This document shows positions 5,530-61,796 of a stretch of 64,000 nucleotides of DNA, piece by piece (positions within the stretch are counted from its first letter, which is position 1; each line of letters opens with the position of its first letter). The stretch lies in NCBI RefSeq assembly GCF_001625215.2, contig NC_030386.2, positions 39,464,796 through 39,528,795 of the forward strand, in the 5' to 3' direction. The stretch comes from Daucus carota subsp. sativus (lineage: Eukaryota > Streptophyta > Magnoliopsida > Apiales > Apiaceae). A program made the position numbers and the translations under genes. Below the pieces are notes generated by a model. The model was not told where the DNA came from and ran no database searches. It was given only the letters and a program-made list of their open reading frames with translations.

Positions 5530-6886
5530 GTACATTTATTGCTCTATCTCCTCGATTATCTCACTGCGATTTTGTATCTCTGCGAGCTTTAGTTGATTTA
5601 TCGATTCTTTTTAAGGATTTAGAGCCTAGTCTATGTGTACAATTGTGGTTTTTTGTGTTGTGATATGTTTATATGTATTTTTTGTTGATTAAATTGATTT
5701 AGGGCTTTTGTTTGTTAGGGTTTTATTACGGTAAGGGGTTTGGTATGTGTTTGGGCTAGGTTTAGCGACTTTTTGGGGGTTTAATGCTTAGTCCATGTTT
5801 TCATTTGTTTTTTTTTTGTTTTTTTTTAGTTATTTATTTGAGTATTTTGTTGATTAAATTGATTTAGGGCTCGTCTTTGTTAGGGTTTTAGTGTGCTAAG
5901 GTGTTTTGTATGTGTTTGTATTGTTTTTGGGAGTAAAATGTATGTATACACCATATATACTTGTTTAATGTTTTCGATTCTTTCTGTGTATTCTTTAGTT
6001 TGTTTTCGGTGTTCGAATATTATTTTTTGTGATTTCAGGGGTTTTAAGCCCAATCTATGTGTATATTTGTGTTTTAATTGTTTTTTAGGTGTTTATATAC
6101 ATGTTTTGTTGATTAAAAGGCTTTATAGTTTATATTTGTCAGACTTATAATCATGTAAGTAGTTTTTTTATGTGTTTTTAGTTTCTCGCACGTCAAAAGT
6201 GTAAATACGAATTTACGATCTTGACTTCTTTGATGTAATTGTGTGCGCTGTTATATTTACTTATATTAGCTTATGTCTTTTCTGGTATTTGAACTTGTTT
6301 TTGTGATTCAAGGGGTTCTAATCTTGATCAGTGCGTGCATTTGTGTTTTGCCTGCTTATTTAAATGTTTTAAAGTGTTTTAATGATAAAATTACTTTGGG
6401 CCTTATAATTTGGGCTTGCAAATGTTCTTTTAGTGTGGGTGTGTTTTTGTTGTTAGCTCCTGTGGGATTTATGTTCTTGTTTTATATATCCACTATATTT
6501 CCTGTGCTCTTATATTTCCTATATTGTATCGGTTTGTGTTATTGTACTTTGTTTAAGCTTAATTTATGTGAACAGTTGTAGTTTTAATTGTTTATTTAGA
6601 TGTTTTGATGTTCAAAGTATGAATTGGTCCGTAGTTCATGTGTGCTGATAATTAGCCTTTTATTTTTGGTACATGTCCTATGTATTGAATTTTTTGTTTT
6701 AACTTGTCACTCTGTGTTTATATTATTGTAATATTTGTTATATGCTAAATGTGTATCAAATTTTCGTGTAATATACATTAATGACTGATGTACCATGATA
6801 CCACTTTTACGAGTTGTGATTTCTGTCACAACATGTTTTTTTAAATGATATTTTTCTTTCGAAACTGTGTTTGCGCCAGTTAAAGT

Positions 6887-13599: not shown

Positions 13600-15355
13600 G
13601 TACATTTATTGCTCTATCTCCTCGATTATCTCACGGAGATCTTGTTTCAAAGCTTCGATTCTTTTGTCTGGTTGTATCTCTACATGCTTTAGCTTGATTT
13701 ATCGATTTTTTTACGGATTTAAAGCCTAGTCTATGTGTCCATTTGTGGTTTTTTGTGTTTGTTATCTGTTTATATGCGTATTTTTGTTGATTAAATTGAT
13801 TTATGCCTTGTGTTTGTTAGGGTTTTAGTACGGTATGCCGTTTTGTATGTGTTTGTGCTTGTTTTAGCGACTTTTTAGGGGTTTAGTGCTTAATTCATGT
13901 GTTCATTTGTGTTTTTTAGTTATTCATATGCGTATTTTGTTGATTACATTGATTTAGGGCTCGTGTTTGTTAGGGTTTTAATACACTAAGGTGTTTTGTA
14001 TGTGTTTGTACTGTTTTTGGGAGTAAAACTTATGTATACACCATATATACTTGTTTATGTTTTTGATGTTGTTTTCTGTGTATTCTATAGTATTTTTTTT
14101 CGGTGTTTGAACATTATTTTTTGTGATTTCAGGGGTGTTAAGCTCAATCTATGTGTATATCTGTTTTTTTAATTGTTTTTTAGGTGTTTAAATTCATGTT
14201 TTGTTGATTAAAAGGCTTTAGAGTTCATATTTGTTAGACTTATTATACTGTAAGTTGTTTTTTATGTGTTCTTATGGTTATTGTTGCTGCAAATGTTTTT
14301 CTTGCATGTCAAAAGTGTATATACGAATTTACGATCTTGACTTGTTTGATGTAATTGTGTGCGCTGTTATATTTACTTATATTAGCTTATGTGTTTTTTG
14401 GTATTTTGAACTTGTTTTTGTGATTCAAGGGGTTTTAATCTTGATCTATGTGTGCAGTTGTATTTTTGCCTGTTTATTTTCATGTTTTAAAGTTTTTTAA
14501 TAATAAAATAACTTTGGGCCTTATAAAATGTTCCTTTAGTGTGTGTTTTTGTTGTTGCTATTGTTATATCCCCATGTGTATGTATATATGACAATCTTAG
14601 CTCCTGTGGGATTTTTGTTCTTGTTCTATATATCTACTATATTTCCGTGCTTTTATATTTTCCTATATTGTATCGGTTTGTGTTGTTGTACTGTTTTAAG
14701 CTTAATCTATGTGATCAATTGTTGTTTTTTATTGTTTAGTTAGATGTTTTGATGATCAGAACACTTTAAGATGAATATTTGGTTTGGTTTCAAACTTGAA
14801 AGTGTTTTTTATGTGTCTATATGCTTGTCATTTTTAAATGATAACCATAAATGAGGTCTTTGTTGAACAAACATAAAGGACATTGTTAGCCTTTGTGGAA
14901 TTTTGTGTTTTCCCCAGTTGAGTTAAAAAAAATTTGCATGCAGAACACTTATACATATATTCCTTGATTTTCACTTATGTTTGTCCCTGAGTTTCTGCTA
15001 TATGTGTTAGTAGAAGGGTATCAAATCTTCATTATTTTTTTCTGTAAGATATTTTCCTTTAGACATGGATGTTCAAAGTATGAAGTGGTCCGTGGTCCAT
15101 GTGTGCTGATAATTAGCCTTTTACTTTTGGTACTAGTCCTATGTTTTGGATTATTATTTTTTTAACTTGTCACTTTGTGTTTATACTTTATATTATTGTA
15201 ATATTTGTTATATGCTAAATGTGTATCATAATTTGTGTAAATATACATTACTGACTGATGTCCCATGATCCCACTTTTACGAGTTGAGATTTCTGTCACA
15301 ACATGTTTTTTTAATGATATTTTGCTTTCGAAACTGTGTTTGGACCAGTTAAAGT

Positions 15356-18300
15356 ATGAGTTCGAGAAGAGGGGGCGGATCTGGTGCAAGACTACCTGCT
15401 GCTGGTGGAACTGGTAAAGCGAAAGGCAAAAATGTTTCCCAAGTTTCTGATAGTTGGGCCGATCCAGTAGCTGATTGGGTGTCAGATATAAGTCTCGATT
15501 CTGAACAAGATGGAGGCTGGAGGGAGGTTGCGAGAAAGCCCCGAAAAAATTCTGTTGGAAATGTGGGGAGTCTGTATCCAGGGACAAAAGTATCAGGTAA
15601 TCCCTGGACTGGGTCTAAGGGGACTTCAAATGCATGGACAGGACCTAAGCAGCCCGCCAATGCCTGGGCGGGGAAGGGTTCTGTGAATGCCTTTGCAGCA
15701 CCAGCAGGTAACAATAAATGGCCTTCTGCTGGCAGAGGAGTTTGGAACCAGTCATCCTCAATAGTGTATGAGAACATCTATGATCAACCAGCTGTTATTC
15801 CTCCTCCTCTTGAGGATGGATGGCAATGGCGTAATAACACATCTCAGGTAGCAAATTCTGGTAATGTATCTGCTTCAAACCCTGCCGATGCTACGTATGA
15901 CGAGGAGGAAGAGAGACATGATGATAACGACGGTGACGAAGATGATTTTAATACTGAAGATATATATGACTCGGAAGAATATGACTCGGATGAAAGCCAG
16001 AAGAGTCACGAAACTCTCAAGAAGACCTCATCGCTCAAGGGTTTTTTCAAAACCCTAGATGAGATGAATATAGAGGAAATTAGTGAACCTGGTAGGGAGT
16101 GGCACTGCCCAGCCTGTGCTGGTGGACCTGGTGCTATTGACTGGTATCGTGGACTGCAGGCCTTGACGACCCATGCTAAAACTAAAGGCAAAAGAAGGGC
16201 AAAAGCCCACAGGCTACTTGCCCAACTCTTGGGTGAGGAGCTGCGTTTGAGGGGAGCTTCCGTGATCCCTGCTGGTGAAGCGTTTGGCAAGTGGAAAGGT
16301 TTGAACGAAAACGTTGTAAGAGACAGGAAAATAGTTTGGCCTCCAATGGTGATGGTCATGAACACACAATTGGACCAAGATGACAACGGAAAGGTAAATT
16401 TCTTTTTATATGCTATTATATAATGCACCCTTGATTTTTAGAGTGACGAATCTAGCTTTCCACGGGAATGCTGACGAGCATATGTTAATCAAACCTTTCT
16501 TCATCTGCTGTTCCTTGGGCCTTACCTTTTAATTCACTTTTTGCATTTTCAGTGGCTTGGCATGGGAAATGCTGAGCTTCTCGAGTACTTCAATGCTTAT
16601 GAAGCCGTGAAGTCCCGGCATTCTTATGGGCCGCAAGGGCATCGAGGTATCAGTGTCCTGATCTTTGAGGCCTTCGCTGTTGGTTTTTTGGAGGCTGAGC
16701 GATTAAGCAAGCATTTCGAGGAGGAAGGAACAAATCGTGAAACTTGGGCTCGTCGTCAGAAGTTGTTTCTTCCTGGCGGGCAGCGTTTGCTGTATGGTTA
16801 TTTGGCAGAAAAAGGAGATATTGATTATTTTAACCAGCATTCGCACGGTACAATATTTTTTACCATTATTTGTGTTAAAAGTACCAATTCCCTCACTTTC
16901 CTCCTTTATTTTCTTAAAAGTTTATATTATTTATCTTTGTTGGGTAGGCAAAACCAAACTGAAATTTGAATTGAGGTCCTATGAAGAGATGGTTGTCAAT
17001 CCAATGAGGCAGATGAATGAGGACAATCATCTCCTCAACTACTACAAGAAAAGAGCTCTCGAGGAGAGTAAACAGGCCAAAGTATATCATGATTCGTTTT
17101 CTGCTGTGTCTGACAAATTGCGCAAGACCCAGGAAGAGAATCGCATAGTGCGACAAATGACAAAAGCGCATCATGAGGAAAACAGGGAGAAGGTAATGAG
17201 TGATCCTTTCTGATAAATAGTGAAAAACTGAAAATATTTATATGGCTTTATGGAGTGTGTACAAAGCTGCCTCACGATTCACTTAAATATTGTGTCACCT
17301 GTTCGTAATACTTGTTTTCTTAATTATAAAGTTTATTCTTTGAACAAGTCATCTTAAGTTCTATATGATATATTCTTGTTATTGTTCAACTACTATCTCG
17401 ACAGACATTGTATTTATCTGCACTTCTTGTTAATTTTTGTGTACTTGGAGGCACATCCTTAGCTTGTTCAGTTTTCGGAGAGTAGTAATAGTACGACATC
17501 TCTTTAGACTCCAATCTCCATTATGAATTATAGACTATCTATTTTTACATATTTGTTTGTATTATCAAGTTATTCGGTGACAGTTATCAGTATACATATT
17601 ATTCTTTACTTTTGAAATGTTTCCTTTCCTCAATTTTCTGTCACATTTGTAGTTGTCAGCTTCTGTTTTCTGATTGATCCTAGTTTGTTATGTGACATTT
17701 CTAGTTGTCAGGTCCATTTTCTAACTGTTCCCAGCTTGTTATGTCACAGTTGTATTTTTCAGCTTCATTTTTCATTGTTGGCAATGAATCTTTTTTAGCT
17801 TCTTGGTGCATTTCTAACTGGTGTTGGGAATTGCAATTTTATTTTTTTAGATGGACTACCAAGAAGAATTTTATAAAGAGCAAATCAAGCTTATCCATGA
17901 AGCCCGCGTTGAGGAGGAGGAGAAATTCGAGAAGATACAGCAGGAGAAACGGCATCAGATGAAGATTTATATGGAGAAACCCTCTTTAGCAGAGGACCGC
18001 CAATTCAGGTAAGATGCAAATAGTATATTGGAGGTGTTACTCATGTTTATGCTTTATCCGCATGTTCTTTTTCTGTGATGTAAAAAATCTTCTGTTTACA
18101 TATAATGCCGATAATAACAGTTTCTGCATGATGGGGATGCTAGTAAACGCTTCTCTCGGCTTTGTTTGTCTTTCAGTTGTAGATTGATTGCTTTTCTAAA
18201 TTGTGTTGCCGGTTTTGCTTACAAAGTATTAGTCAGTATGTAGTCATATTCTTTCTCACTGATTCTTTAGTGTATTATTTATGATTTGCATCATGTCCTC

Positions 18301-21551: not shown

Positions 21552-24500
21552 TCAGGAGATATCAGGTGCTTGTCCTCGGCTGTACTTCTCCATCAGCCGA
21601 GCCAACTCAGCATCAAACTCCTTCTCTAGCTTAACATCCTCCTCGTAGCGCAGCCTCTTTAACTCAGCCTTCCTATCTTCCAGATCTTTTAGAAGTTTGT
21701 CCCTTTCTTCAGCAAAATCATCCATCTCTTTCTGCTGAGACAAAATCAATGTAGCGCCCTTTTTGATCCTATTTCAAGAACCCAAAAGAGAAAAGAAGGT
21801 ATAAACACAAGGAATGTAACTAATTATCCCTACGAATCCATACATTGAAAAAAATATATATATCTTTACAGGTAAAACTTACCAATATCCTCAACAAACT
21901 TACACGATAAAACTAGCACACAAGAAATTTGGCACGAGCTCTAGCAGTTAGTCTCATGATATAAATTGCAACCCCAGAAAAAAGAGGAAAAAGGGCTTAC
22001 AGGCTCAGTAAAAAAGAGGTTACTCATGATGCAATTCATAAATAAATAATACAATAAAGAATCAGTGAGAAAGAAGATAACTACATACCGACTATAATTC
22101 GTAAGCAAGAACGGTAACACAATTTAGAAATGAAGTCAATCTATAACTGACAGGCAAACAAAGCCAAGGGAAGCGTATACAAGCATCCCCATCAAGCTGA
22201 AACTACTAATACCAGCATAAAATGTGAACTGCAGATTTTATACATCACACAAATAGAACATGTGCATACAGCATAAACATGAGCAACCCCTCACATATAC
22301 TATATGCATCATACCTGAATTGGCGGTCCTCTGCAGAAGAGGGATTCTCCATATAACTTTTCATCTCCTCCCGTTTCTCCTGCTGTATCTTCTCGAATTT
22401 TTCCTCCTTCTCAATGCGGGCTTCATGGATAAGCCTGATTTGCTCTTTAAAAAATTCTTCTTGGTAGTCCATCTATAAATTTTGAAATTCCCAACATCAG
22501 TTAGAATAGCACCACAAAGCTAAAAAATAATCATTGCCAGCAATGACAAAAATGAAGCTGACAACTACAATTATAACATATCAACCTGGAAACAATTAGA
22601 AAACTGGAGCTGACAGCTACAAATGTAACATAACAATTGAGGAAACAAGCCATTACTAGAAGTAATTTATAGCATGTAAATGATAACTGTCACCAAATCA
22701 CTTAATAATAAATACATATACATATAGCGAATGTATAACTGATAAAGGAGACTAAAGAGAAGTTTTACTATTTTCTCTGTGAAAAATGAACAAGAATGTG
22801 CCTTCAGGATAAAATGAAGCAAAAAATGAACAAAAAGTGCAAAAAAAATAATGTGTCAGAATAGTAGCTGAACAATAACAAGTGTATATCAATTAGAACT
22901 TGGAATAACTTATTCGATGTATAAACTTTACATTTTAGGAAAAAATTATTACAAACAGGAGATGCATTATGTTAGTTAATCATGAAGCAGAGACAAGATA
23001 CACTTTTACACATTTCCATACCAGTCATTAAGATATTTTCACTGTATATAAAAAAAAATCACTGATTACCTGCTCCTTATTTTCTTCATGATGCAACTTT
23101 GTACGCTGTCGCACTATACGATTCTCTTCTTGGGTCTTGCGCAATTTGTCAGCCACAGCATCAAACGAATCTTTGAGTACTTTTACCTGTTTCTTCTCCT
23201 TGACAACTCTGGTCTTGTAGTAGTTGAGGAGATGATTGTCCTCACTCATTTGCTTCATTGGATTGACAACCATCTCTTCGTAGGACCTCAATTCAAACTT
23301 TAGTTTGGATTTGCCTAGCCAATCAATGATAAGCAAAATCTACTTTTAACAAAACAATAGGAAGAAACTGAAAGATTTGGTAATTTTAACACATAAGGGT
23401 GAAAAAATATTGTACCCTGCGAATGCTGGTTAAAATAGTCGATATCTCCTTTCTCTGCCATGTAACCATAAAGCAAACGCTGTCCGCCGGGAAGAAACTT
23501 CTGCTGACGACGAGCCCAAGCTTCACGATTCGTTCCCTCATCCTCAAAATGCTTGCTTAATCGCTCAGCCTCCAAAAAACCAACAGCCGAAGCCTCAAAG
23601 ATAAGGACACTGATACCTCGATGCCCTTGCGGGCCATAAGAATGCCGAGACCTAACAGCTTCATAAGCATTAAAGCAATCGAGGAGCTCTGCGTTTCCCA
23701 TGCCAAGCCACTGAAAATGTAACAAGTAAAAAGGCAAGGGAGGACGAACAGACAAAGAAAGGTTTAATCATCAGAAGCTACGCAACATTACAATAGAAAG
23801 CTAGATTTCTTACTAGAAAAACAAAGGGAGCATTATATAATAACATAGTAAAAGAAAATTACCTTTCCATTGTCATCTCTGTCCAATTGTGTGTTCATGA
23901 TCATCACCATCGGAGGCCAAACTATTTCCCTGTCTCTGACAACATTTTCATTCAAACCTTTCCATTTGCCAAAGGCTTCACCAGCAGGGATAACAGATGT
24001 TCCCCTCCTGCGCAGCTCCTCATCCAAAAGTTGAGCAAGTACCCTGTGGGCTTTTGCCCTTCTTTTGCCTTTAGTTTTAGCATGAGTCATCAGGGGCTGC
24101 AGTCCACGATACCAGTCGATAGCACCAGGCCCTCCAGCACATGCTGGGCAGTGCCACTGCCTATCAGGTTCAGTAATTTCCTCTACTTTCATCTCATCCA
24201 GGGTTTTAAAGAAACCCTTAAGTAATGAGGTCTTCTTGAGAGTTTCGTGGCTCTTTTGGCTTTCATCAGAGTCATATTCATCTGAATCATATATATCTTC
24301 AGTATTAAAGTCATCTTCATCACCATCATTTTCATCATAACTCTCTTCCTCTTTGTCATATGTAGCATCGACAGGGTTTAAAGCAGATACATTACCCACC
24401 TTTCCAACCTGAGAAGTGTTATTACGCCATTGCCATCCATTCTCAAGAGGAGGAGGAATAACAACCGGTTGATCAAAACTGTTACCATACTCTATGGAGG

Positions 24501-24879
24501 TTGACTGATTCCACCCTCCTTTGCCACCTGCTGGTGCTGCAAAGGCATTCACAGAACCCTTCCCTGCCCAAGCATTGGCGGGCTGCTTAGTTCCAGTCCA
24601 AGCATTAGAATTCCCCTTAGACCCTGTCCAGGGATTACCTGATACTTTTGCACCTGGATACTGACTTCCCACATTTCCAACAGGTTTATTTCTGTGCTTC
24701 CTCGCTACCTCCTCCCAGCCTCCATCTTGTTCAGAATCGAGACTTATATCTGACATCCTATCAGATACTTGATCGGCCCAACGATCAGAAACTTGGGAAA
24801 CATTTTTGCCTTTCGCTGTTTCGGCGGCACCAGCAGCATGTATTTTTGGACCAGACCCACCCCCTCTTCTTGAACTCAT
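21552..24879 (-). CDS. SGS3: SGS3, copy 3, inverted and more diverged (643 aa)
   Basis: This is a third SGS3 gene, convergent with the tandem pair. Exons on the minus strand are 24879-23863, 23710-23416, 23314-23070, 22472-22315 and 21768-21552. Phases agree and give 643 aa. Exons 2-5 have exactly the lengths of the other copies; exon 1 is seven codons shorter, mostly from loss of the NNKWPSAGRG stretch. The WHCPAC finger, XS domain (including FEASAVGFLEAERLSKHFE) and charged coiled coil are present, and the start MSSRRGGGSG is shared. N-terminal residues after it differ (PKIHAAGAAETAKGKN). It looks functional. Its intron sequence aligns only partly with copies 1 and 2, so the duplication is older than the tandem one. 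Confidence 0.94.
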
Positions 24880-25665
24880 ATTTTAACTGGCCCAAACACG
24901 GTTCCGGATGTGAAATACCTTTGATACCTATATAAAAAAAAAATTGTTAAATGACAGAAAATTTATATTACAAAAGTGGAATAATGGTATATAATGTATA
25001 CTTACGCAAAAGGTTGATTTACATTTGGCATTTGGCATACTAAGAACAATTACTATAATGAACACAAAGTGACATGTTAAAGCTGAAAAACCTATACCTA
25101 ACAACAGTACCACAAATGCAACACAATAGTCAGCACATCGACCACGGACCACTTCATACTTTGATCATCCATGAATACAGGAAATTCTTTTACAAAAATA
25201 ATGAAGACTTGAGACCCTTCTACCAACACATATACCAGAAACTCAGGCACAAACTTAAGGGAAAACCTCAGAGTATATTGTACAGATGTTCTACATGCAA
25301 AAATTCTCTAGCTCTACCATGAAGCACAGAACAAACCACACAGGCTAAAAATGTCAGTCATGTTTTTTCAACCAAGACCTCGTTTAAAAAATCAAATGAA
25401 ACGATCCCAGAATATAGTGCTTTTTGTATATATGTGACAACCAAAAATGGCAACCATACAAACACATATAAGAACTTTCAAATTTGAACCCAAACCAATA
25501 TTTATATCGAAGTGGTCTGATCATCAAAACATGAATTAAACAATAAAAACCACAATATTCACAAAGATTAAGCTTAAACCCAGTACAACAACACAAACCC
25601 ATACAATAGAGGGGAAGATAACAACACAGAAAACAAGTTCAAATACCAAAAACAAATAGGCTTAT

Positions 25666-30974: not shown

Positions 30975-32090
30975 AGTGATGTAAACAAAATTTTAGGAAA
31001 TAATAATTTTATTTGGTTTTTAACAGGCAAGTAGAAGTTTGACTAGTACCGCTAACTAGTGTTTAATCCTAATTTAGTGTTTCAATATTTTAAAAAATAT
31101 TTTTTACCGATCCAACTGTATGAATGTTAACATATATACATTTTAGTGATATAAACAAAGTTTCAAAAAAATTGAAATTATTAGGTTAGCTATTTTAAGA
31201 GTCAACTAGCGGTTTGTCCTTATTTTTTTCTGGCTCGGCTCGACTCGACTCGACTCGGCTCGGCTCGTATTTGTTCGCGAACAAGCTCGTGTTCGGCTCG
31301 TTAGTTAACGAGCCGAGCTTGAACACAATTTTTGTTCGATTAAAAAGCTCGGCTCGGCTCGGCTCGTCAGAAAAAAAATTAAAGCTCGGCTCGGTTCGGT
31401 CAAAACTCGGCTCGGCTCGGTTCGTGAACAGCTCTATTTACAGTCCAACACAAGTCGACCAAATGTGGAATTTAACTACACTGAACTACGTAAAGCTTGC
31501 ACCACTTTCATACAATCAGACTCCACCACCACCACCTTGCTCCACTGCTTTGTTTTGACCCAGCTCAAAGCTTCCTTAACAGCTATCACCTCTGCTAGAT
31601 CCGCGGATGTTTTTCCGATTTTGCTTGCCGCCTTAGCTCCCAACAATCTTCCTGAATGATCACGAGCAACACACCCAAAACCAAAACAGTTTTCATCATC
31701 GAAAAGGGCTGAGTCAACATTTATCTTGATTGTATTCATATCTGGTTTCGTCCAACGCTCACTACCATCCTTCGCATGCTTAAACGCGATTGACGGAGTA
31801 AAATATTTCAGCTGAGCTTCCATCCAATGATCAAGAGTAAACTGAGCAGTTCTAATTACCTCATCGACATGAAGGTATGTTTCATGCCAGACCACCATAT
31901 TCCGAGCTTTCCAAACGGACCACAGCAGCATCACCAACTTAGCTAGTCCTGAATTGTCATATTGATCCATTACAATATTCAGCCAAGCAGCAAAATTGTC
32001 AACGTCATCCATAGTGTTGCCAAAACCTGCACCCCGTTTACATGCTTGAGCAAACTCACACCGGATATTGATAATCTTTTTAACAAAAAT
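30452..32090 (-). pseudogene. LINE-type RNase H domain pseudogene, split by a hAT element
   Basis: The minus-strand reading runs from about 32090 to a TGA at 30452-30454 and encodes the end of a zf-RVT-like region (LLWSVWKARNMVVWHE) followed by a plant RVT_3 RNase H domain (NTIKINVDSALFDDE, VARDHSGRLLGAKA, VVVESDCMKVVQAL, and after the insertion FIRRSANKVAHCLARQS). Such domains come from non-LTR retrotransposons or their domesticated relatives. It carries an in-frame TAG just after the QALRSSV stretch and an 803-bp hAT insertion at 30634-31436. Removing one target duplication re-joins the frame at DCK/Q. It is non-functional as it stands. Confidence 0.82.
30634..31436. mobile_element. hAT-type non-autonomous element, 803 bp
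   Basis: Terminal repeats are TAGGGCTGTTTAACGAACCG and, complementary on the right, TAGAGCTGTTCACGAACCG. The 8-bp target duplication TTTACAGT is perfect (30626-30633 and 31437-31444). Subterminal regions are dense in GAGCTCG/GGCTCGGCTCG repeats, and the middle holds an (AT)n tract at about 30920-30971. There is no transposase. It inserted into the RNase H pseudogene. Confidence 0.9.
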
Positions 32091-32364
32091 GTGTTAGTTT
32101 GTTCAAAATAATTTAAACTTTATGTTTTGTAAACCTGTATCGAGTGACAATGCCAAGCAGACCGGCCGGTCTGATAGTTCCGAATATTAGTTATAAAGCG
32201 AGCAATTATGCAAATAACCGAAAAGGAGTTGAAGATGTATAGATTTGTCACATTGATTTGTAGTAGATGTAGGAAACTCAAAACCCTTTGAATATATAAA
32301 CACATGCCTTGCAATTATTCTTCACAATCTGCAGAAACAACTCATCATTCCGGTACCGCGAATC

Positions 32365-34577
32365 ATGGCAGAAGCAAAGCCCTTTCCATTCACTGCATGT
32401 GTTGATCATCCAAATATCAGTACGTTTTACTTTTATTTTATTTGATTATCTACTAATCCTGACTATAGACGAGAAAGACTTGCGTATAGCTAGCATCCAT
32501 ACTAATTAAGAGTCCCAAAGACAGAATTTGACTAAGGCCTCTTAAACTCAGGCCGCTTGCTATGCTTATAGGTTGTTTATTTTTTCTTTTACTGCAGAAT
32601 ATTCTTACTAATGTAAACAAATAAATTTTGCAGCTTGGGGAGAATTATTTTTGTATTGGCTAGGAGCTAACGGTAACTTCAGACCAGAGATACGAGCATT
32701 AGGTATCGATTAACAGATCGATCATGTCTTGGAGGCTATGATATTGTGCTCTAAATCTGATGTTTTATTTGCTTTCTTGCATGTTTTTCACGTAACCTAC
32801 TGTATTCTGCAGCGTTTCGAGAGTCTGTGACTTTGTCTGCAGCTACCTGCAACTTTTCAAATCACGGAAATCACTGGGTATGGATTGTTTTTCTTCATAG
32901 TTTATTTCAACAAGCATCTTGAATTCTTGATCATATATATAACGTGCACATAGTCTATAGATACATAATATATATCACAAGGAAAAACGGTTATTTTCAA
33001 TCGCGACCACTCACCATTTTCTATCGGTAACGATCAAAATTACATGCACTACAACAAAACTAGGTTTTTACGGCGAAAGTTAAGGCGCAAGTCCGTCGTA
33101 AGTTCTTACTTTACGACGGACTTTTTCCATCGTTTTTGGTCAAGTCGAAAGTTGCAAAATACGTCACAATTCCAAACATGCGTCGTAAGTATTAAAACCG
33201 TCGTAAGTTACAGAATTTACGACGGAACTTTCCGTCGCAAGTATGTTGTGGGCCCAGATCCTTGTATGGATAAATTTTATCTTATGACGCACTGTCCGTC
33301 GTATGTTAACTACCTTACGATGGAAATACGGAAATAAGAACTAAAAGAGGTCGAAAATAACGGATCGAAAATATATGTAATTTTGACTCATTGTTGGCAG
33401 TCGAAAATAAGAATAATAACCGATTTTTCTGTCGTGCATGAAATTATGAATGCAATTAAAAAGTCCTTTGCATATCATAAACTCCCTTACAATTTGATAT
33501 CATGCATGCCTAATATACAGAAGTGTTGTTCACTTCTTCTTGTTTATATATTTCAGAAGAGAGGCGAGCAGACGTAGCACGGGCTAGAAAGAATCATCCT
33601 TATTCTATACCTGTAAGATAGATCTGTACTTGTGGCGGATTATATCGATTAAGGTTTATTAATTTGCAGCTGCTTTTTTACACCAATCTCATTTTCGAAT
33701 TGCCTGTGCAGGTGATTGTACAGCAGGCTGAGGAAAGCCAGATGTGTTATCCCAAAAAGAAGAAGTAATTTGCCTATACCTTTGCTTTTTCTCTTCTCTC
33801 TGAATTCTGAGTTTAATCCTTCCCTGACTTAACTTGAAAAAGATTTGCTTATTGTTTATAAACAAGTGACAAATAACTTATATTTTATTAGTTTAGATAA
33901 ATTCATTAATAATTTATTATTTTTAAGTATAAAAACTAGTATAATGATATATAAAATATAAAAATTATCTTGTAAGGTGATATATATATATTATATTTGT
34001 TAAAGTCAAATATCAAAAATTAAAATAAGCTGAGGGTTTTAACTTTTCAATTAATTCTAATTCATGGTTAGCTAAAATTATATTGTAAATCTGTCATACA
34101 AATTATATAAAAAACTGATTTTTTGTTAGTTTAGGGGAAAAAAACTCAAGAATAGGACGGTATCTCCGTATTCCCGATTTTTTTAAATTCTCAAATCAGA
34201 CATTCATATGCATATCTTGTCTGACACACATCGTCACCTGCAGGTTACTCTTTCCACCTAACTGCAACCTTGAAGCACTTTTCATTGCGATTTGGACGCT
34301 AATCTATCAGCGTGGCCATAAGTCATTACGTGGCTATGTGGAGCATATGGATCCCATTTGTGAGTTCATATTGCATATACATGCATGTTTTTACGATTAA
34401 GTCTTAATTAGCCCAATTTGTTTATGCATGTAAACAGTTGAGAAACCAATGTCATTAATCTACGAAGAATACAAAGACGAAGACGGCTGCCTCTACATCA
34501 ACTTAAGTGGCGAGAAGAAAGAGCTGTTTCGTGAGCCTATTCCCAGTAACATCATTGCATGGACTTTCTATGTGTAG
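32365..34577 (+). CDS. Divergent ATG8-like ubiquitin-fold protein lacking the C-terminal glycine (139 aa)
   Basis: ATG8 is the ubiquitin-like autophagy protein attached to phosphatidylethanolamine through a C-terminal Gly exposed by ATG4. Exons 32365-32419, 33557-33612, 33712-33764, 34244-34359 and 34438-34577 have consensus splice sites and matching phases, giving 139 aa (ATG8 is about 117-122). Matches in order: KERRADVARARKNHPYSIP to ERRxAEAARIREKYPDRIP; VIVQQAEES to VIVEKAEKS; KKKxLxP; and SLIYEEYKDEDGCLY to STIYEEHKDEDGFLY, then SGE. The central strands and helix are poorly conserved. After SGE the usual TFG is replaced by a 20-residue tail with no Gly, so canonical lipidation looks impossible. 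The open frame and intact introns argue against a simple pseudogene, but expression is unknown. Confidence 0.75.
32634..32877 (+). other. Two possible cassette exons in intron 1 of the ATG8-like gene
   Basis: Segments 32634-32702 (TTTTGCAG before, GTATCG after) and 32813-32877 (TCTGCAG before, GTATGG after) have good splice borders and stay open in the frame set by exon 1, reading TWGELFLYWLGANG... Together they are 134 nt, so inclusion would shift the downstream frame and hit TAG at 33575-33577, giving about 69 residues. They may be alternative poison exons, remains of another gene, or chance. Confidence 0.35.
33047..33330 (+). mobile_element. CACTA transposon end, fragment
   Basis: CACTACAACAAAACTAGG resembles the CACTACAAGAAAA terminus of plant CACTA (En/Spm) elements. 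It is followed by repeated TCCGTCGTAAG / TTACGACGGA motifs in both orientations, typical of subterminal repeats. No matching opposite terminus was found nearby, so this is probably a solo or eroded end. It sits in the first intron of the ATG8-like gene. Confidence 0.6.
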
Positions 34578-34928
34578 ACATTTAAAGGATTAACACGATT
34601 TGGCTAATTAATTTCTATACTATCTTATGATTATGGTTTGAGTCTCCTAATTAAGTTTATAAATATATAAAGGTTTGAGTCTCCTAAATTTACTACAATT
34701 GTGTGTTCCCCTCCATTTGGTTAATGTCCATTAATTAACTATATATATATATATATCTTGTAATTACATCAAATTAAACAGAATTGTTTGTGTGTTTAAA
34801 TTAATTAAAAATTAAAAATAATAATGCAAGAATATCTTTTTAACAAGATATTAAAATATTATTTTGAAAAAAGAGAAAAGTAATTATTGAGGGACAATTT
34901 TTTCTCAAACTTGACCATGAAAAAGATG

Positions 34929-40532: not shown

Positions 40533-42386
40533 GGTTTTCCACCAGCTTCTCCAAACTAATGAGTTTGGATTATCATGTGTTCTCGACTATAGTTGGTAAT
40601 CATGAATAATGTAGGAAGTGTTCGACCATATTGTACCTAGATATTGTATCTAGATGAGCATGTGGTCACAACGTTGGTTACTACTTTTGATAAAGTGTTG
40701 TACCTGAATTGTTTTTGCAATGCTGAAGTTGGGAGATATTGGATAATTTTTCTAAAGATTTTCATTGCTCTTTTCTAAGATGATGCTGCATGATTGATTA
40801 ATTTTACGCCGCATGCAACCCATTTTTCATCGATTGTTTAAGTGGATCTGAACTTGTCCAGGTTGGATACATCCTTTGGTGTGCCTGGTATTAAAAAAGT
40901 TATTTTAATTAATCTAATAAGGCATATAAATTGGAACATTTTTAACTAAGATCTATTTATTTGAAATTTTATGGGATGTTTTTTAAGAAAATTATTTTAA
41001 CCAACTCAATAAAAATATATACATCCTAGGACTCATTTTAAATGTAAATATTATTTCTTCAAAAAAAATGTAAATATTATTCTAACACCCATCTCAAAAA
41101 TAACATCAAATATCAGAATAAGATTAGATCCGATATCTATTACTGTACTTTAAGTATCAATTAGGTAAATATTGCAAAGAAGGTGAGTGAGTAATTAGAC
41201 TAATGAGTTAAAGTAATTCTAGATGTGATATTTTAAATAATTAATGGACTCTAATTGATAAAAAAAAATAAAAATATATAATTTCAAGTGTGTCTGACAA
41301 AGGATAAATACATAATATGAATTCTGGCACTTAAGTTTAACTCTTAAGTAGCAATAATTATAAAGGCTTAAACACGTGCATCTCTTTATATATATTTGAA
41401 ACAAAAAAGCTTAGTAATTGTCCAATGAGCGTACGTAGGGAATAGAATTTATATTTATATGAAAATTTTTAATAATAAATGTTAAATAAATATTCAACAT
41501 TTCTTATTCTCAAAAAGAAGACACTTATCTTTTTAAATAAAAATATAATTACGTATTTTTTGGGAAATAAATGATCATCTTTTAAAAATTAAATAAGTTA
41601 AATTGAATCTATATATTATATGACTTGTTCTTTTATTAATATTATTTTGACACTTTGAAATTCCATTATCCTAATGTTCGGCACTTATTAGTACTTATAA
41701 CAAAATTTACATAAAAATAAAATACGCAATTTAGATAAATTTTGAATTTATATAATTATATAGCATCAAAATTATAATTGCTATGAGGATTAACAACAAT
41801 TCCGGTTATGAAAATTCCTTAACTAAAGATGAGTTATCGTATTTGAGAAAATAGAAATAATCCCATGAAGATATCACATTTCAACCCTCTCCCTTGTCCA
41901 TAATTTTAATCAATATTTATAAAACCGATAGCAAATGTCACGTTATTATTAATTAAAATCTTAAAATAATATATTTTATTTATAAGAATATAAAAACATT
42001 ACAATATTTTAGATTTAAATTATAATTAATCAATATAATAATAATTATTAAAATAAAATATATTAAATATTCAACAAATTTTATATAATATTTTATGCTC
42101 AGAATTTAATCTATCACCGTAACTGGCTCACTGCAGATGCTCTGAGGCAATCTTACTCTTAACATGTTGATGAGGTTAGCTGTGAATCCGCTGTTCACTC
42201 AGATTCACGCAGATTCGATATCTTCATACATCATTTTCAATTTACCACGTGGGTTTAAATGCCAGCAGACGGGGACCGAGCAATAAAAATGTCACAACTA
42301 AACAAATTGTACAAATTTGACTTTATATAGATATGAAAAATATCAGGATCCGGTAATCTTATGCCACACATTCACAACTCTTCAAC
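40533..42386. other. Rxt3-gene 3' flank and P450-A upstream region
   Basis: This is AT-rich intergenic DNA without a supported gene. The final 150 bp contains GTTTAAATGCCAGCAGACGG, GGGGACCGAGCAATAA and a TTTATATAG box about 65 bp before the P450 ATG. Related words recur near 53775 and 63845, so this promoter-side segment belongs to the repeated P450 unit. Confidence 0.5.
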
Positions 42387-44446
42387 ATGTCTCCCACAGA
42401 TTTTGCGTTGCTTATAGTAACCGCCGGAGCCTTGGGGTGGTTCATCCTGCGATGCCGAACCATGGTTCGACACCGCGGCCGCAGGCAACCACCCGGGCCA
42501 ATAGGTTTACCGGTCATCGGTCACCTCCACATGCTAGGAAAACTCCCTCACCGCAGCCTCTACAAGTTGTCACAAAAATATGGTCCCATAATGTCGATCC
42601 GCCTCGGATCTGTTCCCACAATTATAGTGTCGTCGCCCTCGGCTGCTGAGCTCTTTCTCAGGACTCACGACACGGTTTTCGCTAGCAGGCCTAATGCCCA
42701 GGCCGCCGAGTACTTATCCTATGGCAGCAAAGGTTTGGCATTCTCGAAATATGGTTCGTATTGGCGTAGCGTGAGGAAGTTTTGCACAATGGAGCTTCTT
42801 AGTGTCGCGAAAATTGATTCTATGGCTAGGCTGAGAAGGGAGGAACTGGGCTTGCTGGTGCAGTCCCTGAAAGTGGCGGCCAGGACCGGTGAGGTTGTGG
42901 ATTTTAGCGAGAAGGTGGCGCGTCTGATAGAAGACATGACTTGCCGAATGTTGTTTGGGAAGAGCAGAGATGATCGGTTTGACTTGAGTAAGATCATACA
43001 TGAGCTGGCAGAGGTTACTGGAGCCTTCAATCTTGCGGACTATGTCCCATTTTTAGGGGCATTTGATCTCCAGGTATCAATTACTAGTATAAAACTGCTC
43101 CCTCCGTCCACCAGATTCTTTATATCATCGAACGTAATCTCGACATGCATTTTAGGGCTCTCATTAAGCATATTTACATAATTTATATCCAATTATACTT
43201 AACGGAAGTCTTAAAATGCGTGTGAAGCCCTCCGTCCGCCAGCGTAAAGAACCTAGCGGGTCGGAGGGAATATACTTGAGATCTCATTGTTACGGTGGGA
43301 GCTATACTTGAGATCTCATTGTTACGGTGGGCTCTCGGGTTTAAAATAGGAGAGAAACGGAGAGAAGTGAAAAGAAAATTTAATGAATTATTAATCGAGA
43401 AAAGAAAAGATAACTTCCACGGGTTTCTCTTTAAAAATGGATTGATTTGGAGAAGAACTCTCACACTTGCTAATAAAATATGGGCATCACGTAATTAGGC
43501 AAACAGAGTATATGATTTGGGTCCGTCACGAACAAGATAAAATATTAAAATTGCAGGCAGAACCTGTTTCCTCTGCAGGTAACTCAAGGACCCTGATCTT
43601 TAATTTAATTGTTTTCGTCAGGGATTAACTCGACGCCTCAGAGTTGCTGCTAAGGCATTTGATAAAATCTTAGAGACTATCATTGATGATCATGAACAAA
43701 AAGCTGGAAATGACGATACAGAGCTTGATAAGGATTTTGTTGATGTCATGCTAGCTCTGAAGAACAATCCTACAAGTACTCACCAGCAATTAGCGCAGAT
43801 CATCGATAGATCAATTACCAAAGCCATTATCTTGGATATGATTTTCGGAGCCATTGATACCTCCCACACCGCGATAGAATGGATCATGTCAGAACTCCTC
43901 CGACATCCAAAAGTGATGAAACGACTTCAAGAAGAAATTAGTGTCATAGTAGATGGCGAACTTGTGGAAGAATCACATCTGGATAAACTTGAGTACCTAG
44001 ACATGGTGGTCAAGGAAGCCTTGAGACTTCATCCGGTGGGACCCCTGTTAGTTCCTCATGAGTCGATGGAGGACATTGTGATCGATGGATATTACATAGA
44101 GAAGAATTCGCGTGTGATCATTAATGGTTGGGGCATTGGACGAGATCCAAGGATTTGGTCTGAAAATGTGGAAGAATTCATTCCTGAGAGATTTGCGGGT
44201 ACTGACATAGATCTCCGGGGGAAAAGTTTTCAGCTTATACCATTTGGTTCAGGCCGGAGAGGCTGTCCAGGTATACACTTGGGACTAATAAACATCAAAT
44301 TGGTGGTTGCTCAGTTAGTACACAGCTTCGATTGGGAGCTACCTTTGGGGATTTCACCCGACGAGTTAAATATGGATGAAACATTCGGTTTGTCATTGCC
44401 AAGGGCAGAGCATCTCCTGGCCATACCCAAATTTAGGAAAAGTTGA
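42387..44446 (+). CDS. Cytochrome P450 A, CYP736-like (503 aa)
   Basis: An ER-anchored haem-thiolate monooxygenase of the CYP71 clan, closest from memory to CYP736A. The substrate cannot be told from sequence. Exon 1 is 42387-43073 and exon 2 is 43622-44446, with a phase-0 intron after FDLQ as is common in this clan; total 503 aa. It has an N-terminal hydrophobic anchor (FALLIVTAGALGWFIL), the proline hinge PPGPIGLPVIGHL, SYWRSVRKFC (helix C), the I-helix GAIDTSHTAIEW near residue 305, KEALR (ExxR) near 360, PERF near 417, and the haem loop FGSGRRGCPG with Cys about 443. All key residues are present. The intron carries a Stowaway MITE and a 32-bp tandem repeat. It is the first of three paralogues in direct orientation. 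Confidence 0.95.
43098..43270. mobile_element. Stowaway-like MITE in the P450-A intron, eroded
   Basis: CTCCCTCCGTCCACCAG at the left pairs with the GGTCGGAGGGAA end on the right. Borders are imperfect, so it is older than the other Stowaway copies here. P450-B and C lack it at this intron position. Confidence 0.65.
43271..43334 (+). repeat. 32-bp tandem repeat, two copies
   Basis: The unit beginning TATACTTGAGATCTCATTGT is repeated directly after the MITE in the P450-A intron; only the last bases differ. Confidence 0.8.
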
Positions 44447-44702
44447 ATTCCACATTCATGGTGGTATGTGTGATTGTCCTGTGTAACTTTAAGCAGAATG
44501 AGTAGCTACCCTCTTGTGAGGAGTTGTTTTGATAAATTGTTATGTGCGGACTGCAGTGTTTTATCAACTCCCTCCCTTCTTAATTATCAATCGCATCTGT
44601 TTTTAATTTTAAAATTTAAAATATCAAACTGATCGATATTTGATTAAATATTAAAATTATTTATTTATTATATTAATAAATTAAAAAATATATAAATAGA
44701 TT

Positions 44703-44788
44703 TTTTTTTTTTTTGAGCCAGAGTCGAACCCAGGACCTGGGCCAACAGAGGATAAGCCCTTAACCACTTGGGCTATCCAATCGTGCTC
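44703..44788 (-). mobile_element. Short tRNA-derived SINE
   Basis: On the minus strand the sequence shows an A-box-like TAGCCCAAGTGGTTAAGGG, a B-box-like GGTTCGACTCT and a poly(A) tail. It is bracketed by AAATATATAAATAGATT at about 44687-44702 and 44789-44805, a target-site duplication. The tRNA resemblance is only to the promoter boxes; it cannot fold as a full tRNA with proper arms. Confidence 0.75.
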
Positions 44789-45353
44789 AAATATATAAAT
44801 AGATTAGTTACATGTTTTAGTGAAAAAATTTGTTTAACTCTTCGAATCATATAATACACATAAATTTCATCAATTTAAATAATCAAAAATCACTTAAATA
44901 TTATAAATCTGTATTTAGGGAGGGCCAGTAAATATCTATATATATTAATTGGTTCTTTACACTTTGACATTTCAATTTCTGGTTCGCTTACATTCCACTT
45001 ATGACAACATTTTTGTATTTTTCCACTACTGCATATTTTTCTTCCAAAGAATTATTGCAGTTCCTAGTTAAAACAAAATTTATGACAGGGCAAGATCAAT
45101 CTTATCCGTGTCATGTTGACAACGTTAACTGTGGATTTGTTTTTCATATTTTCAACTTTTCGTTCTTCTAGGTGTTATGTGTCTACATTTAAATACCAGA
45201 TGATTTTCAGCTCGAGTGTTTGATGGGAGATATTTTTCTATCAATTTAATTCCTGTATTGTTGGCTGATTTGAATGATAAATGGAATACTTTTTCCGTCA
45301 AAAAAAAATGAAAGATGATAATAGAACGATCATAGATTACATTTTCAAAGATA

Positions 45354-45604
45354 CTCCCTCCGTCCCCCTGAGTAGTATACATTGGGGGACGGGGATGCGG
45401 CACGGACTTTAATGCTCCTGTAAAGTGTAGTTGTGTAATTTATTTTTAAAATTTTCTTTTTCTGAATTAAAGTTTGGATGCTATATTTTTATTCAGAAAA
45501 AGAAAATCTCAAAAATAAGTTATGGAACTATGTTTTATAAGAGCATTGAAATGCGTGTCGAGCAGTTGAAAAGAAACGTATACAATTAAATGGGACAGAG
45601 GGAG
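45354..45604. mobile_element. Stowaway MITE, 251 bp, with TA target duplication
   Basis: The ends are CTCCCTCCGTCCC and its imperfect complement GGGACAGAGGGAG, with TA on each side. The paralogous intergenic sequence at about 53629-53660 reads TTTCAAAGATAGACAAAT without the element, giving an empty site within the window. Confidence 0.85.
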
Positions 45605-46686
45605 TAGACAAACCGTATAAAGTTGACTTGTTCGGATATGATTAATGTAAATTGTTTAATTATAATTTAGTAAAATGATTTAACAATCATTCATGCATGG
45701 GAAATTTATTTAAAATAATCCAATCAATAAAATAGATTTAAAAAAATGGAGATAAGTTAGATATAAATATATGTCATTTTGATTTTGGATCTGCATTCTA
45801 ATTTCTTGCATGATTTATGGACATTAGTTTATTTTAATTTCCTAACAAAAAATATAAATGTAAAGTCTGAATAATTTTTTTAGATATTCATTTTATTTTC
45901 ATTTTTTTCATTCAAAATTCATTTTTTTTTTGAAATAAATCATATTAATAAAATTCATTTTTTATTAAATCATATTATATATATAGAAAATTACATAACA
46001 TATCATCCTTTCCTTTATTAATATAATTGATGAGTAGTTTATCAGAGTAATCGATGATAAAATTTCTATTGATAAGAAAGTGGTCAAGATTTAAAGTTGG
46101 GGAGCAACTGTGTTGATGTCATGCTAGCTCTATGAAGAATCAACATATATCATTTTTTGTAAAAAATAAATTATTAAATTATATTAATTAAAAATATTAA
46201 TAAAATTATTATTGTCATATATTTTTGCATCATTGATTGAGTTTTGTATCAAACATTAATATTTCATTACTTAAATAGAGACGGAAAAAATAAAAAATAA
46301 ATGTATCTCATACTTCCATTTCATACCCACCTCCCCACTTGGGTATCAAAAACAACTCATACCATGGAGGTTTAAGGCTGGGTTTCAGATTTTGTTTTTC
46401 TTTAGACAAACCTCATACATTCCATAAATCCATGAACCAAACGACTCCTAAATAGAATGAATATGTATTAGATTTTTAATTAAAATAATTAGAATGAAAT
46501 AATGGAAGTAACGAAAATTTTAAACTATTTTACTGATCACTAGCAATTTATACCAGTAAATTTAAGATTAGCAGAGAGAGAGGCTATAGCTCAATATATA
46601 TATACGCATATTGTGATAATGCATTTGCAGGTGCAGCACCTTTCTTTGACAAGAAACAAGTAGCAACACTTTCACAGCTCTTCAAC
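45605..46686. other. P450-B upstream region
   Basis: This is AT-rich intergenic DNA resembling 53.4-54 kb and 63.3-63.9 kb. The last 110 bp, with TGCATTTGCAGGTG, GCACCTTTCTTTGACAAG and CACTTTCACAGCTCTTCAAC just before the ATG, is almost the same as upstream of P450-C. A run of TATATATATA about 90 bp before the ATG may supply the TATA box. Confidence 0.5.
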
Positions 46687-48538
46687 ATGTCTCCCACAGA
46701 TTTTGCATTGCTTATAGTAAGCGCCGGATCCTTGTGGTGGTTCATCCTGCAGTGCCGAACCATGGTTCGCCAACACGGCCGCAGACAACCACCCGGGCCA
46801 ATAGGTCTACCGGTCATCGGTCACCTCCACATGCTAGGAAAACTCCCTCACCGCAGCCTCTACAAGTTGTCACAAAAATACGGTCCCATAATGTCGATCC
46901 GCCTCGGATCTGTTCCCACAATTATAGTGTCGTCGCCTTCGGCTGCCGAGCTCTTTCTCAGGACTCACGACACGGTTTTTGCGAGCCGGCCTAATGCCCA
47001 GGCCGCCGAGTACTTATCTTATGGCAGCAAAGGAATGGCATTCTCGAAATATGGTTCGTACTGGCGCAGCGTGAGAAAGTTTTGCACAATGGAGCTTCTT
47101 AGTGTCGCGAAAATTGATTCTATGGCTAGGCTGAGAAGGGAGGAGCTGGGCTTGCTAGTGGAGTCCCTGAAAGTGGCAGCCAGGGCCGGTGAGGTGGTGG
47201 ATTTTAGCGAGAAGGTCGCGCGTCTGATAGAAGACATGACTTGTCGGATGTTGTTTGGGAAGAGCAGAGATGATCGGTTTGATTTGAGTAAGATCATACA
47301 TGAGCTGGCAGAGATTGCTGGAGCCTTCAATGTTGCAGATTATGTCCCATTTTTAGGGGCATTTGATCTCCAGGTATCAATAACTGTAAAACTATACTTT
47401 TCTATTTATCGACGGGGCCGTTTGGGTGAACTTAAAAAAAGTGTTTATTGCTTAAAGTAAAAAAGTGAAGTAGAAGTTAGAAGCAAGTTAAGACTTATAA
47501 GTGATAAAAGTGTTTGGGAAATAAGTAGAAGCCGTGAGACAAAAGCTAGTATTCGTAGCTTTTTTTAAGTAATTCTTGACTTTTTACACAAACGGTACAA
47601 ATAAGTGCTTCGAACTTATAATTCAGAAGCCGGGCTTATAAGTCCGTGCCAAACACCCACTTAATTATCAGGGACCCTGATCTTTAAATCTTTAATGTAA
47701 TTGTTGTTATCAGGGATTAACTCGACGCTCCAGAGTGACTGCTAAGGCATTTGATAAAATCCTGGAAACGATCATCGATGATCATGAAGAAAAAGCTAGA
47801 AATGACGATACAAAGCTTGATAGGGATTTTGTTGATGTCATGCTAGCTTTGAAGAACAATCCTACAAGTACTCACCAGCAATTAGCGGAGACCATTGACC
47901 GATCGATCACCAAAGCAATTATCCTGGACATGATTTTCGGAGCCATTGATACCTCCCAAACTGCGATTGAATGGATCATGTCAGAACTCATCCGACATCC
48001 AAGCGTGATGAAACGACTTCAAGAAGAAATTAATATCATAGTAAATTGCGAAGTTGTGGAAGAATCACATCTGGATAAACTTGAGTACCTAGACATGGTG
48101 GTCAAGGAAGCCTTGAGACTCCATCCGGTGGCACCACTGTTAGTTCCTCATGAGTCAATGGAGGACATTGTGATAGATGGATATTACATAGAGAAGAATT
48201 CGCGTCTAATTATTAACAATTGGGGCATAGGACGAGATCCTGGGATTTGGTCGGAAAATGTTGAAGAATTCCTTCCTGAGAGATTTGCGGGTACTGACAT
48301 AGATCTCCGGGGGGAAAGTTTTCAACTTATACCGTTTGGTTCAGGCCGGAGAGGTTGTCCGGGCATGCACTTGGGCTTAATAAACATCAAATTGGTGGTT
48401 GCTCAGTTGGTACACAGCTTTGATTGGGAGCTACCTTTCGGCATTTCACCGGACGAGTTAAATATGGATGAAGCATTCGGTTTGTCATTGCCAAGGGCAG
48501 AGCATCTCCTGGCCATACCCAAATTTAGGAAAAGTTGA
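46687..48538 (+). CDS. Cytochrome P450 B, CYP736-like (503 aa)
   Basis: An ER-bound CYP71-clan monooxygenase and direct-repeat paralogue of P450-A. Exon 1 is 46687-47373 and exon 2 is 47714-48538, with the same lengths and intron phase as in A; 503 aa in total. The hydrophobic anchor, PPGPIGLPVIGHL, GAIDTSQTAIEW, KEALR, PERF and the haem loop FGSGRRGCPG are intact. Differences from A include LWWFILQC in the anchor, EFLPERF, GESFQ, PGMHL and LPFGIS around the haem region. The intron differs from that of A: it holds a different MITE, also present in C. Substrate unknown. Confidence 0.95.
47413..47660. mobile_element. hAT-like MITE in the P450-B intron
   Basis: The left end GGGCCGTTTGGGTGAACTT and the right end CCGTGCCAAACACCC are related inverted ends of the GGCCGTTTGG type common in plant introns. 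The interior has the GTGTTTGGGAAATAAGTAGAA motif. Because the same element sits in P450-C, the insertion predates the B/C duplication and postdates the split from A. Precise target duplications were not resolved. Confidence 0.65.
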
Positions 48539-55226: not shown

Positions 55227-55425
55227 CTCTCTCCGTCCACCAAGTTCTTTACGTTATTTTTTGTCACGCATTTTTATAAGGCTCTTATAAAATATACTTA
55301 CATTATATATTTATTTAAAAAAATTCTGAAAAAAAATTTGACGTTAAACTTTTATTTAAAAAAAAAAATTAAAAAAATATTATTAAACTATACTTTATAT
55401 AAGCAAACATCCTGGTCTCGGGGAG
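55227..55425. mobile_element. Stowaway-like MITE just upstream of P450-C
   Basis: CTCTCTCCGTCCACCAAG pairs with the diverged right end GGTCTCGGGGAG, and TA flanks both ends. It ends about 100 bp before the P450-C ATG, so it adjoins the promoter. P450-B, whose proximal 5' region is nearly the same, lacks it. Confidence 0.65.
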
Positions 55426-55607
55426 TAGTTTTTATCGGTGTATATATACACGTGCATTATGCATTTGCAAGTGTAGCACCTTTCTCTGACAAGAAACAAG
55501 AAGCAACACTTTCACAGCTCTTCAACATGTCTCCCACAGATTTTGCATTACTTATAGTAAGCGCCGGAGCCTTGTGGTGGTTCATCCTGCAGTGCCGAAC
55601 CATGGTT

Positions 55608-61557: not shown

Positions 61558-61796
61558 CTTAGGGGCGGTCTGGGTGAGCTTAAAATAAGTGTTTATTGCT
61601 TAGAGTAAAAAAGTGAAGTAGAAGTTAGAAGCAAGTTAAAACTTATAAGTGATAAAAGTGTTTGGGAAATAAGTAGAAGCCAAGTAATCGTAGGTTTTTT
61701 TAAGTACTTCTTGACTTTTTACACAAACGGTACAAATAAGTGCTTCTAAATTATAATTCAGAAGCCGGGCTTATAAGTCTTTGCCAAACACCCACT
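61558..61796. mobile_element. hAT-like MITE in the P450-C intron
   Basis: It is orthologous in position and sequence to the element in the P450-B intron (GTGTTTGGGAAATAAGTAGAA, CCAAACACCC at the right end). It has small deletions relative to B, for instance after AAGTAGAAGCC. Confidence 0.6.

Follow-up and report, generated by a model that had tools for sequence, protein, structure and literature searches.

A carrot ATG8-derived gene without a C-terminal glycine, and a possible role for it that would not require lipidation

The window analyzed here, a stretch of 64,000 nucleotides of the carrot genome (C6:39464796-39528795), carries a spliced ATG8-like gene, the candidate of this study, whose parts and neighbors are listed in Table 1. 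The genome searched for relatives of this gene comprised 441,086,747 bases in 11 contigs, nine at 33-65 Mb and two at 0.25 and 0.13 Mb. Just upstream of the candidate there is a reverse-transcriptase-like open frame, and elsewhere in the window are three copies of a zf-XS/XS-domain gene with long, matching, unspaced open frames, one of them inverted, which we take to resemble SGS3. Tandem cytochrome P450 genes of two long exons each are also present, two scanned pieces of which match PF00067, and the first exon of the third P450 copy is split by a long element, presumably copia-like, in which an open frame of 1453 codons lies between direct repeats of 300 nt. These repeats are identical, which suggests that the insertion is recent.

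Table 1. Features of the candidate gene and of its surroundings in the window (exons numbered after the six-exon model).
Feature	Position	Strand	Remarks
Possible TATA box, TATATAA	32293..32299	+	66 bases upstream of the start codon; a pattern match only, which does not in itself show function
Exon 1, N-terminal extension MAEAKPFPFTACVDHPNI	32365..32419	+	C8 copy 90% identical over 41 nt
Exon 2, TWGELFLYWLGANGNFRPEIRAL	32634..32702	+	overlooked in the original prediction; counterpart of the C7 exon containing ATG8 exon 1
Exon-like remnant, 65 nt	32813..32877	+	in intron 2; inclusion breaks the frame; 74% identical stretch in C8 copy
Exon 3, (E)ERRADVARARKNHPYSIP, ATG8 helix 2	33557..33612	+	56 nt; length and phases as in ordinary ATG8
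Exon 4, VIVQQAEESQMCYPKKK(K)	33712..33764	+	53 nt; length and phases as in ordinary ATG8
Exon 5, rewritten core LLFPPNCNLEALFIAIWTLIYQRGHKSLRGYVEHMDPI	34244..34359	+	116 nt long; the ordinary genes have 119 nt here
Exon 6 with stop, IYEEYKDEDGCLY block and Gly-free tail	34438..34577	+	read from the sequence
Tail of 20 residues, KKELFREPIPSNIIAWTFYV	34515..34574	+	replaces the (N)TFG end of ATG8; 14 of 19 aligned residues common to the C8 copy
In-frame TFKGLTRFG then TAA, past the TAG	34578..34607	+	absent after the stop in the C8 copies
zf-XS/XS-domain gene copy	6884..8755
zf-XS/XS-domain gene copy	15353..17213
zf-XS/XS-domain gene copy	23028..24882	-
RVT_3 open frame	31476..32093	-	RNase H type, PF13456
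P450 genes	42357..48538
P450 gene	60868..62673
Long element	55221..61608
Open frame of the element	56261..60622
Direct repeats of the element	55608..55907, 60577..60876

The original prediction, made from the letters of the window, had read the candidate as five exons encoding 139 aa, and this much holds: the five exons (1, 3, 4, 5 and 6 of Table 1) were verified on the sequence, every border is GT..AG, the intron phases are 1,0,2,1 and the frame is open, with a GC content of 0.43 in exons against 0.24-0.36 in introns. What the prediction overlooked is an in-frame exon of 69 nt (exon 2) within its intron 1, running from phase 1 to phase 1 and bordered by ttttgcag and gtatcg, with the acceptor ttttgcag and the donor TTAG/GTAT as in the intact relative on contig C7 that is described below. 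Exon 2 of the C7 gene is homologous both to this exon (z=6.4, 0/5000 shuffles) and to ordinary ATG8 exon 1 (z=5.6, 0/5000 shuffles); compared with ordinary ATG8 exon 1 directly, the candidate's exon gives a weak score that is matched by 189 of 5000 shuffles. Because of this chain of homology the six-exon, 162-aa model is the best available, and it supersedes the five-exon model as the sole description of the gene. The candidate probably encodes this 162-aa protein, and the five-exon form, which likewise keeps the frame, may be an isoform. In the six-exon model the junction residue K19 of the shorter form becomes Glu, matching the ordinary genes. The alignment of exon 1 with its counterpart in the C8 copy begins 4 nt upstream of the ATG, and the first exons of the candidate and the C7 gene are weakly alike (111/5000 shuffles attain the score).

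It is clear that the candidate descends from ATG8, as had been proposed from its ERR..IPVIV, KKK and IYEEYKDEDG blocks. The joined 139-aa product matches the Pfam ATG8 profile PF02991 with E=1.7e-13 and 51.1 bits (cut-off 27) over nearly its full length (profile positions 1-101 of 104), and the 162-aa product scores 50.5 bits against the same cut-off. Among the best 60 of 111 PDB sequences matched at E<=1, the first is 5l83 (E=1.6e-15) and the second 7dht, which is named ATG8f; an excerpt of PMC7301642 gives 5l83 as potato ATG8CL. The four intron phases of the five-exon form (1,0,2,1) equal those of five ordinary ATG8 genes in the genome, and the intron positions agree as well, except for a slide of 3 nt (one codon) at the last intron, intron 4; relative to the ordinary gene structure, the candidate has one extra 5' exon. 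A chance open frame is ruled out by the profile match, the intron phases and the existence of related loci, and a retrocopy is ruled out by the introns.

Likeness to the ordinary genes is unevenly spread along the protein. Against the carrot ATG8 gene L012, 38 of 101 aligned residues are identical, divided into 16/37 in the exons from ERR to KKK, 6/38 in the exon that follows and, as far as SGE, 16/26 in the final exon. The contrast between the 6/38 of the rewritten core (exon 5, or exon 4 in five-exon numbering) and the 32/63 of the other aligned exons is significant (Fisher p=0.0006), which bears out the earlier description of the central segment as rewritten. A compensated frameshift as the origin of this segment was considered and rejected: the exon has the phases of ATG8, it aligns without gaps, and stops occur in its other frames.

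A Pfam search of the genome at E<=0.001 returned six ATG8 loci (12 exon matches), and at E<=10 there were 21 matches, including the last exons of the candidate and of the C8 and C7 copies (E 0.2 to 2). Five of the six loci are intact ordinary ATG8 genes, four assigned to clade I and one to clade II by similarity, and they end in TFG plus a short tail; their exon lengths are 37 or 43, 56, 53, 119 and 92-110 nt, the first exons of two of them having been taken from upstream sequence. L009 has a GC donor following its fourth exon, and the sixth locus, L014 (C3:10878129-10878438), is an ATG8 pseudogene, truncated and interrupted by a stop in exon 4. A weak profile match was also seen at G000:C1:42650258-42650383 (E=6, 15.5 bits). 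The candidate resembles the clade I genes in its profile match, its intron phases and the three blocks named above, and differs from them in lacking the C-terminal Gly, in its added N-terminal exons, in its rewritten core, in the change of F105 to C and in the loss of the UIM-docking segment. With clade II (the ATG8h/i type, carrot L013) it shares the family and a C-terminus that departs from the usual one, but L013 retains its Gly (...TFGYGYIQ) and has only 28 of 101 residues in common with the candidate.

Few eukaryotic proteins are more conserved than ATG8, whose function is as a rule identified with lipidation, for which ATG4, ATG7 and ATG3 act on its C-terminal Phe-Gly; the terminal Gly is needed for both ATG4 cleavage and lipidation. 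The 20 residues that follow SGE in the candidate contain no glycine and end ...AWTFYV before the stop, so that the C-terminal Phe/Tyr-Gly exposed by ATG4 is absent, and the earlier reading of a Gly-free tail of about 20 residues in place of TFG can be seen directly in the sequence. A non-exhaustive search of splice forms yielded no Gly-ending form in the frame used. Two in-frame Phe-Gly-stop strings lie within 1 kb downstream (34599 and 34716), each past at least one stop, and the first raises the question of whether readthrough of the TAG might add TFKGLTRFG and so place a Phe-Gly at the extreme C-terminus of a lipidatable protein. In favor of this are the presence of the string itself and the fact that Arabidopsis ATG8h/i likewise end at Gly (excerpt of PMC7301642). 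Nevertheless we regard readthrough as most improbable, since the C8 copies have no FG before their next stop, the C7 copy ends GVLPKVT, the Gly would sit some 30 residues past SGE as opposed to 4 in ATG8, and a string of this kind is expected by chance at a rate that we estimate, uncomputed, to be of the order of a percent.

The docking surfaces of the candidate are partly altered. In the alignment, ordinary I22, R29, Y50, F61 and F105 correspond to A51, S58, L79, L90 and C134, whereas P60, K76, K78, L80 and P82 are kept; the assignment of these residues to the docking site (W- and L-pocket) and their numbering are in part provisional and otherwise follow excerpts of PMC7615515 and PMC7301642. 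In the UIM-docking segment the ordinary IFIF is replaced by LRGY, which, subject to a weak alignment in this exon, fails the consensus of small hydrophobic-F-small hydrophobic-aromatic/T (excerpt of PMC7301642). These residues bear on the suggestion that the protein might be an autophagy decoy or inhibitor, binding AIM receptors or conjugation enzymes while itself unlipidated. The missing Gly and the partly kept docking site would suit such a role, but the UIM-docking segment is changed, as are residues of the W- and L-pockets. The AIM-decoy role that had been proposed finds no specific support, and we consider it improbable.

The candidate is one of a small group of Gly-less sequences that also includes an intact copy on C7 and two broken copies on C8. 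A genome search with the candidate protein at E<=10 gave 11 matches, of which five fell in the candidate, two in the C8 loci, one in the C7 locus and three in ordinary ATG8 exons; a search with the C7 protein at the same threshold gave 10 matches and no additional loci, and a DNA search of the genome with 34230-34600 found nothing beyond the two C8 loci and the window itself. On C8, the copy L026 and the ordinary gene L011 are arranged head to head, their starts about 1.9 kb apart. L026 still has the later exons and a tail of the same kind as the candidate's (SGEKKDLLPEPIPSNIMTWTFY), but its frame is lost in the first exon and in the rewritten-core exon. Still more damaged is L027, a near-copy 32 kb beyond L026 (95% over 283 nt, 80% over 1422). 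The C7 copy, L028, is intact and follows the same six-exon plan as the candidate, with 153 aa running from MEETISPYTFSG... to DGCLYMTMTGVLPKVT; taken alone, this protein reaches 31.2 bits with the ATG8 profile (cut-off 27) and matches the PDB at E=1.1e-12, and the exon that precedes its ATG8 body, DHGEIIMTLSVSKCNFKPEKPL, has ATG8 exon 1 (MAKNSFKSEHPL) as its second half (0/5000 shuffles). In the candidate, C8 and C7 copies the last intron is preceded by H-x-D-P and followed by (E/D)K-x-M-S, Cys replaces the ordinary Phe in DGC, and a C-terminal Gly is lacking. In a tree that included two Arabidopsis sequences and in which the frame-shifted part of the C8 sequence was entered as X, the three Gly-less sequences group with 99/98 support, which is to be read with a warning of long branches.

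Two of the four members of this group are broken, and the branch of the candidate (0.68) is far longer than that of its broken C8 sister (0.04). One plausible explanation is that the candidate is a once-functional ATG8 duplicate now decaying, its open frame left over from earlier constraint and no useful protein being made, and the out-of-frame exon remnant in its intron also fits such a history. The existence of a second intact copy on C7 speaks against decay, and in the candidate itself neither the frame nor the splice sites, whose disruption would mark a pseudogene, are disrupted. The comparisons of substitution rates described below bear on both sides of the question.

Codon comparison of the candidate with the C8 copy gave w 0.40 over 106 codons (p=0.0033), with w 0.23 (p=0.005) in the last exon, w 0.155 in the tail alone (p=0.013 uncorrected; differences 3, 1 and 7 by codon position) and w 0.46 (p=0.15) and 0.61 (p=0.46) in the other exons. 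This test covered six segments with uncorrected p-values; the 106 codons exclude the first two exons of the candidate and, in the C8 copy, two inserted codons and the frame-shifted middle. At the nucleotide level the last exon is more alike between the two copies (0.83) than the other exons (0.757 and 0.722), which are no more alike than the introns (0.64-0.79), and the signal of selection is therefore located in the last exon; in the rewritten core no constraint was seen. On the tree, neutrality was rejected for both tips jointly (p=0.0024) and for the stem (p=0.012), but not for either tip by itself (candidate p=0.49, C8 p=0.14). Adding the C7 copy (44 codons) gives w 0.31 for the whole group (p=0.001). 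Neutrality is also rejected within the group when the stem is left free (p=0.0009), and the C7 tip alone fits neutrality (w 1.0, p=1). The whole branch compared with ordinary ATG8 has w 0.46, no different from 1 (2dL 1.26; segment fits saturated or unbounded), and the substitutions are no more conservative than in neutral simulation, where, with four reference genes, 172, 152, 139 and 74 runs out of 400 attained the observed value. Parsimony suggests a single loss of the glycine ahead of the split into the three copies, and if so the selection postdates that loss. Preservation of coding sequence by selection after the loss is seen in the group overall and in the tail that the candidate and the C8 copy have in common. 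In the dN/dS comparison proposed earlier, neutrality is rejected for the group and for the candidate-C8 pair but not for the candidate tip alone.

How much weight decay should be given depends on these opposing results. A tip that fits neutrality on a branch that outpaces a broken sister leaves room for a recent loss of constraint, and the rewritten core and the type of substitution likewise show no constraint. On the other side, selection is detected inside the Gly-less group, and an intact frame and intact splice sites would be improbable if the candidate had been neutral since its split from the C8 copy: in simulation the start, frame and splice sites survived in about 4/20,000 runs (~2e-4). 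The simulation ran over half the distance between the candidate and the C8 copy (JC 0.304, based on 196 non-coding sites; 5 gap events, of which 4 were not multiples of 3) and used the five-exon form of a gene chosen because it looked intact; by our estimate from scaling the logarithm, roughly the last third of the time since the split could be neutral at the 5% level. Decay is therefore a serious possibility, though we think it on the whole less than likely.

The original prediction had left the choice between a decaying copy and a non-lipidated variant with a new role, and of these the second is favored, though unproven, by the intact C7 copy, the rejection of neutrality in the group and the outcome of the simulation, with the neutral-like tip of the candidate counting against it. 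On balance, and with confidence only modestly beyond an even division, we read the candidate as a lineage-specific, non-lipidatable ATG8 derivative, most likely with a soluble, lipidation-independent binding role now or until recently. The spliced gene would have arisen from a plant ATG8 by duplication as a member of the small Gly-less group, and its product of about 162 aa would consist of an N-terminal extension, the ATG8 helical arm, a ubiquitin-like region with one rewritten exon and a new tail. Without the glycine there should be no ATG4 processing and no ATG8-PE, and the predicted soluble module, untethered to any membrane, may offer its partners the surfaces it has kept (helix 2/strand 1 and the IYEEYKDEDG helix/strand 4), much as in the lipidation-independent Atg8 roles described below; more speculatively, the hydrophobic tail could stand in for the lipid in docking or folding, and its end, NIIAWTFYV, could be a membrane or pocket-filling element. 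Since the glycine is gone and the gene has seemingly been kept by selection, a role other than ordinary membrane tagging may exist. As a broader and tentative proposal, which we would not yet call likely, the carrot lineage might possess a separate lipidation-free class of ATG8-like proteins that carry an N-terminal extension, a rewritten ubiquitin-like core and, in place of the lipid anchor, a hydrophobic tail under selection, and that act as soluble or tail-docked adaptors with partners of their own.

Lipidation-independent roles have been described for ordinary Atg8 proteins in excerpts of the literature, including that of yeast Atg8 with Hfl1 (PMC6279349), roles of unlipidated Atg8 in flies (Drosophila Atg8a/b) and in nuclei (PMC7615515), and the action of Arabidopsis ATG8 with ABS3 without PE conjugation (PMC7301642). 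In Atg8-Hfl1, Drosophila Atg8a/b and ATG8-ABS3 an ordinary Atg8 is used in unlipidated form, whereas the candidate gene itself is without the site. Leaving aside BnaA3.ATG8C of rapeseed, which is reported to hold only one of three ATG8 motifs (PMC9569553), no plant ATG8 without a C-terminal Gly was found in the excerpts of the literature searched. The candidate derives from ATG8 yet lacks the lipidation feature by which ATG8 is defined. If this reading is true, a lineage that retained such Gly-less derivatives under selection would amount to a natural separation-of-function experiment, showing which parts of ATG8 count when there is no attachment to a membrane, and roles of plant ATG8 that do not depend on lipidation would become directly testable.

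Some further observations concern the 5' parts of the Gly-less genes. Their intron 1 contains exon-like tandem modules of about 63-69 nt (gcag...gtat), three of them at L026:1505-2375 and two in the window, namely exon 2 and the exon-like remnant; some are open and some broken, as though an exon had been duplicated several times, and one version is related to ATG8 exon 1. A DNA search for the intron module was swamped by a dispersed repeat (at least 55 matches; 40 of 387 candidates scored). In the C7 copy, a tandem duplication of about 160 bases (L028:2236-2560) places a second version of the start of an ATG8 exon (cagATGAGAGGCAAGCG..., ended by a stop) immediately upstream of the real exon. 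At about 33048, within the large intron of the candidate, a stretch starting CACTACAACAAAACTAGG presumably resembles the end of a CACTA-type miniature element.
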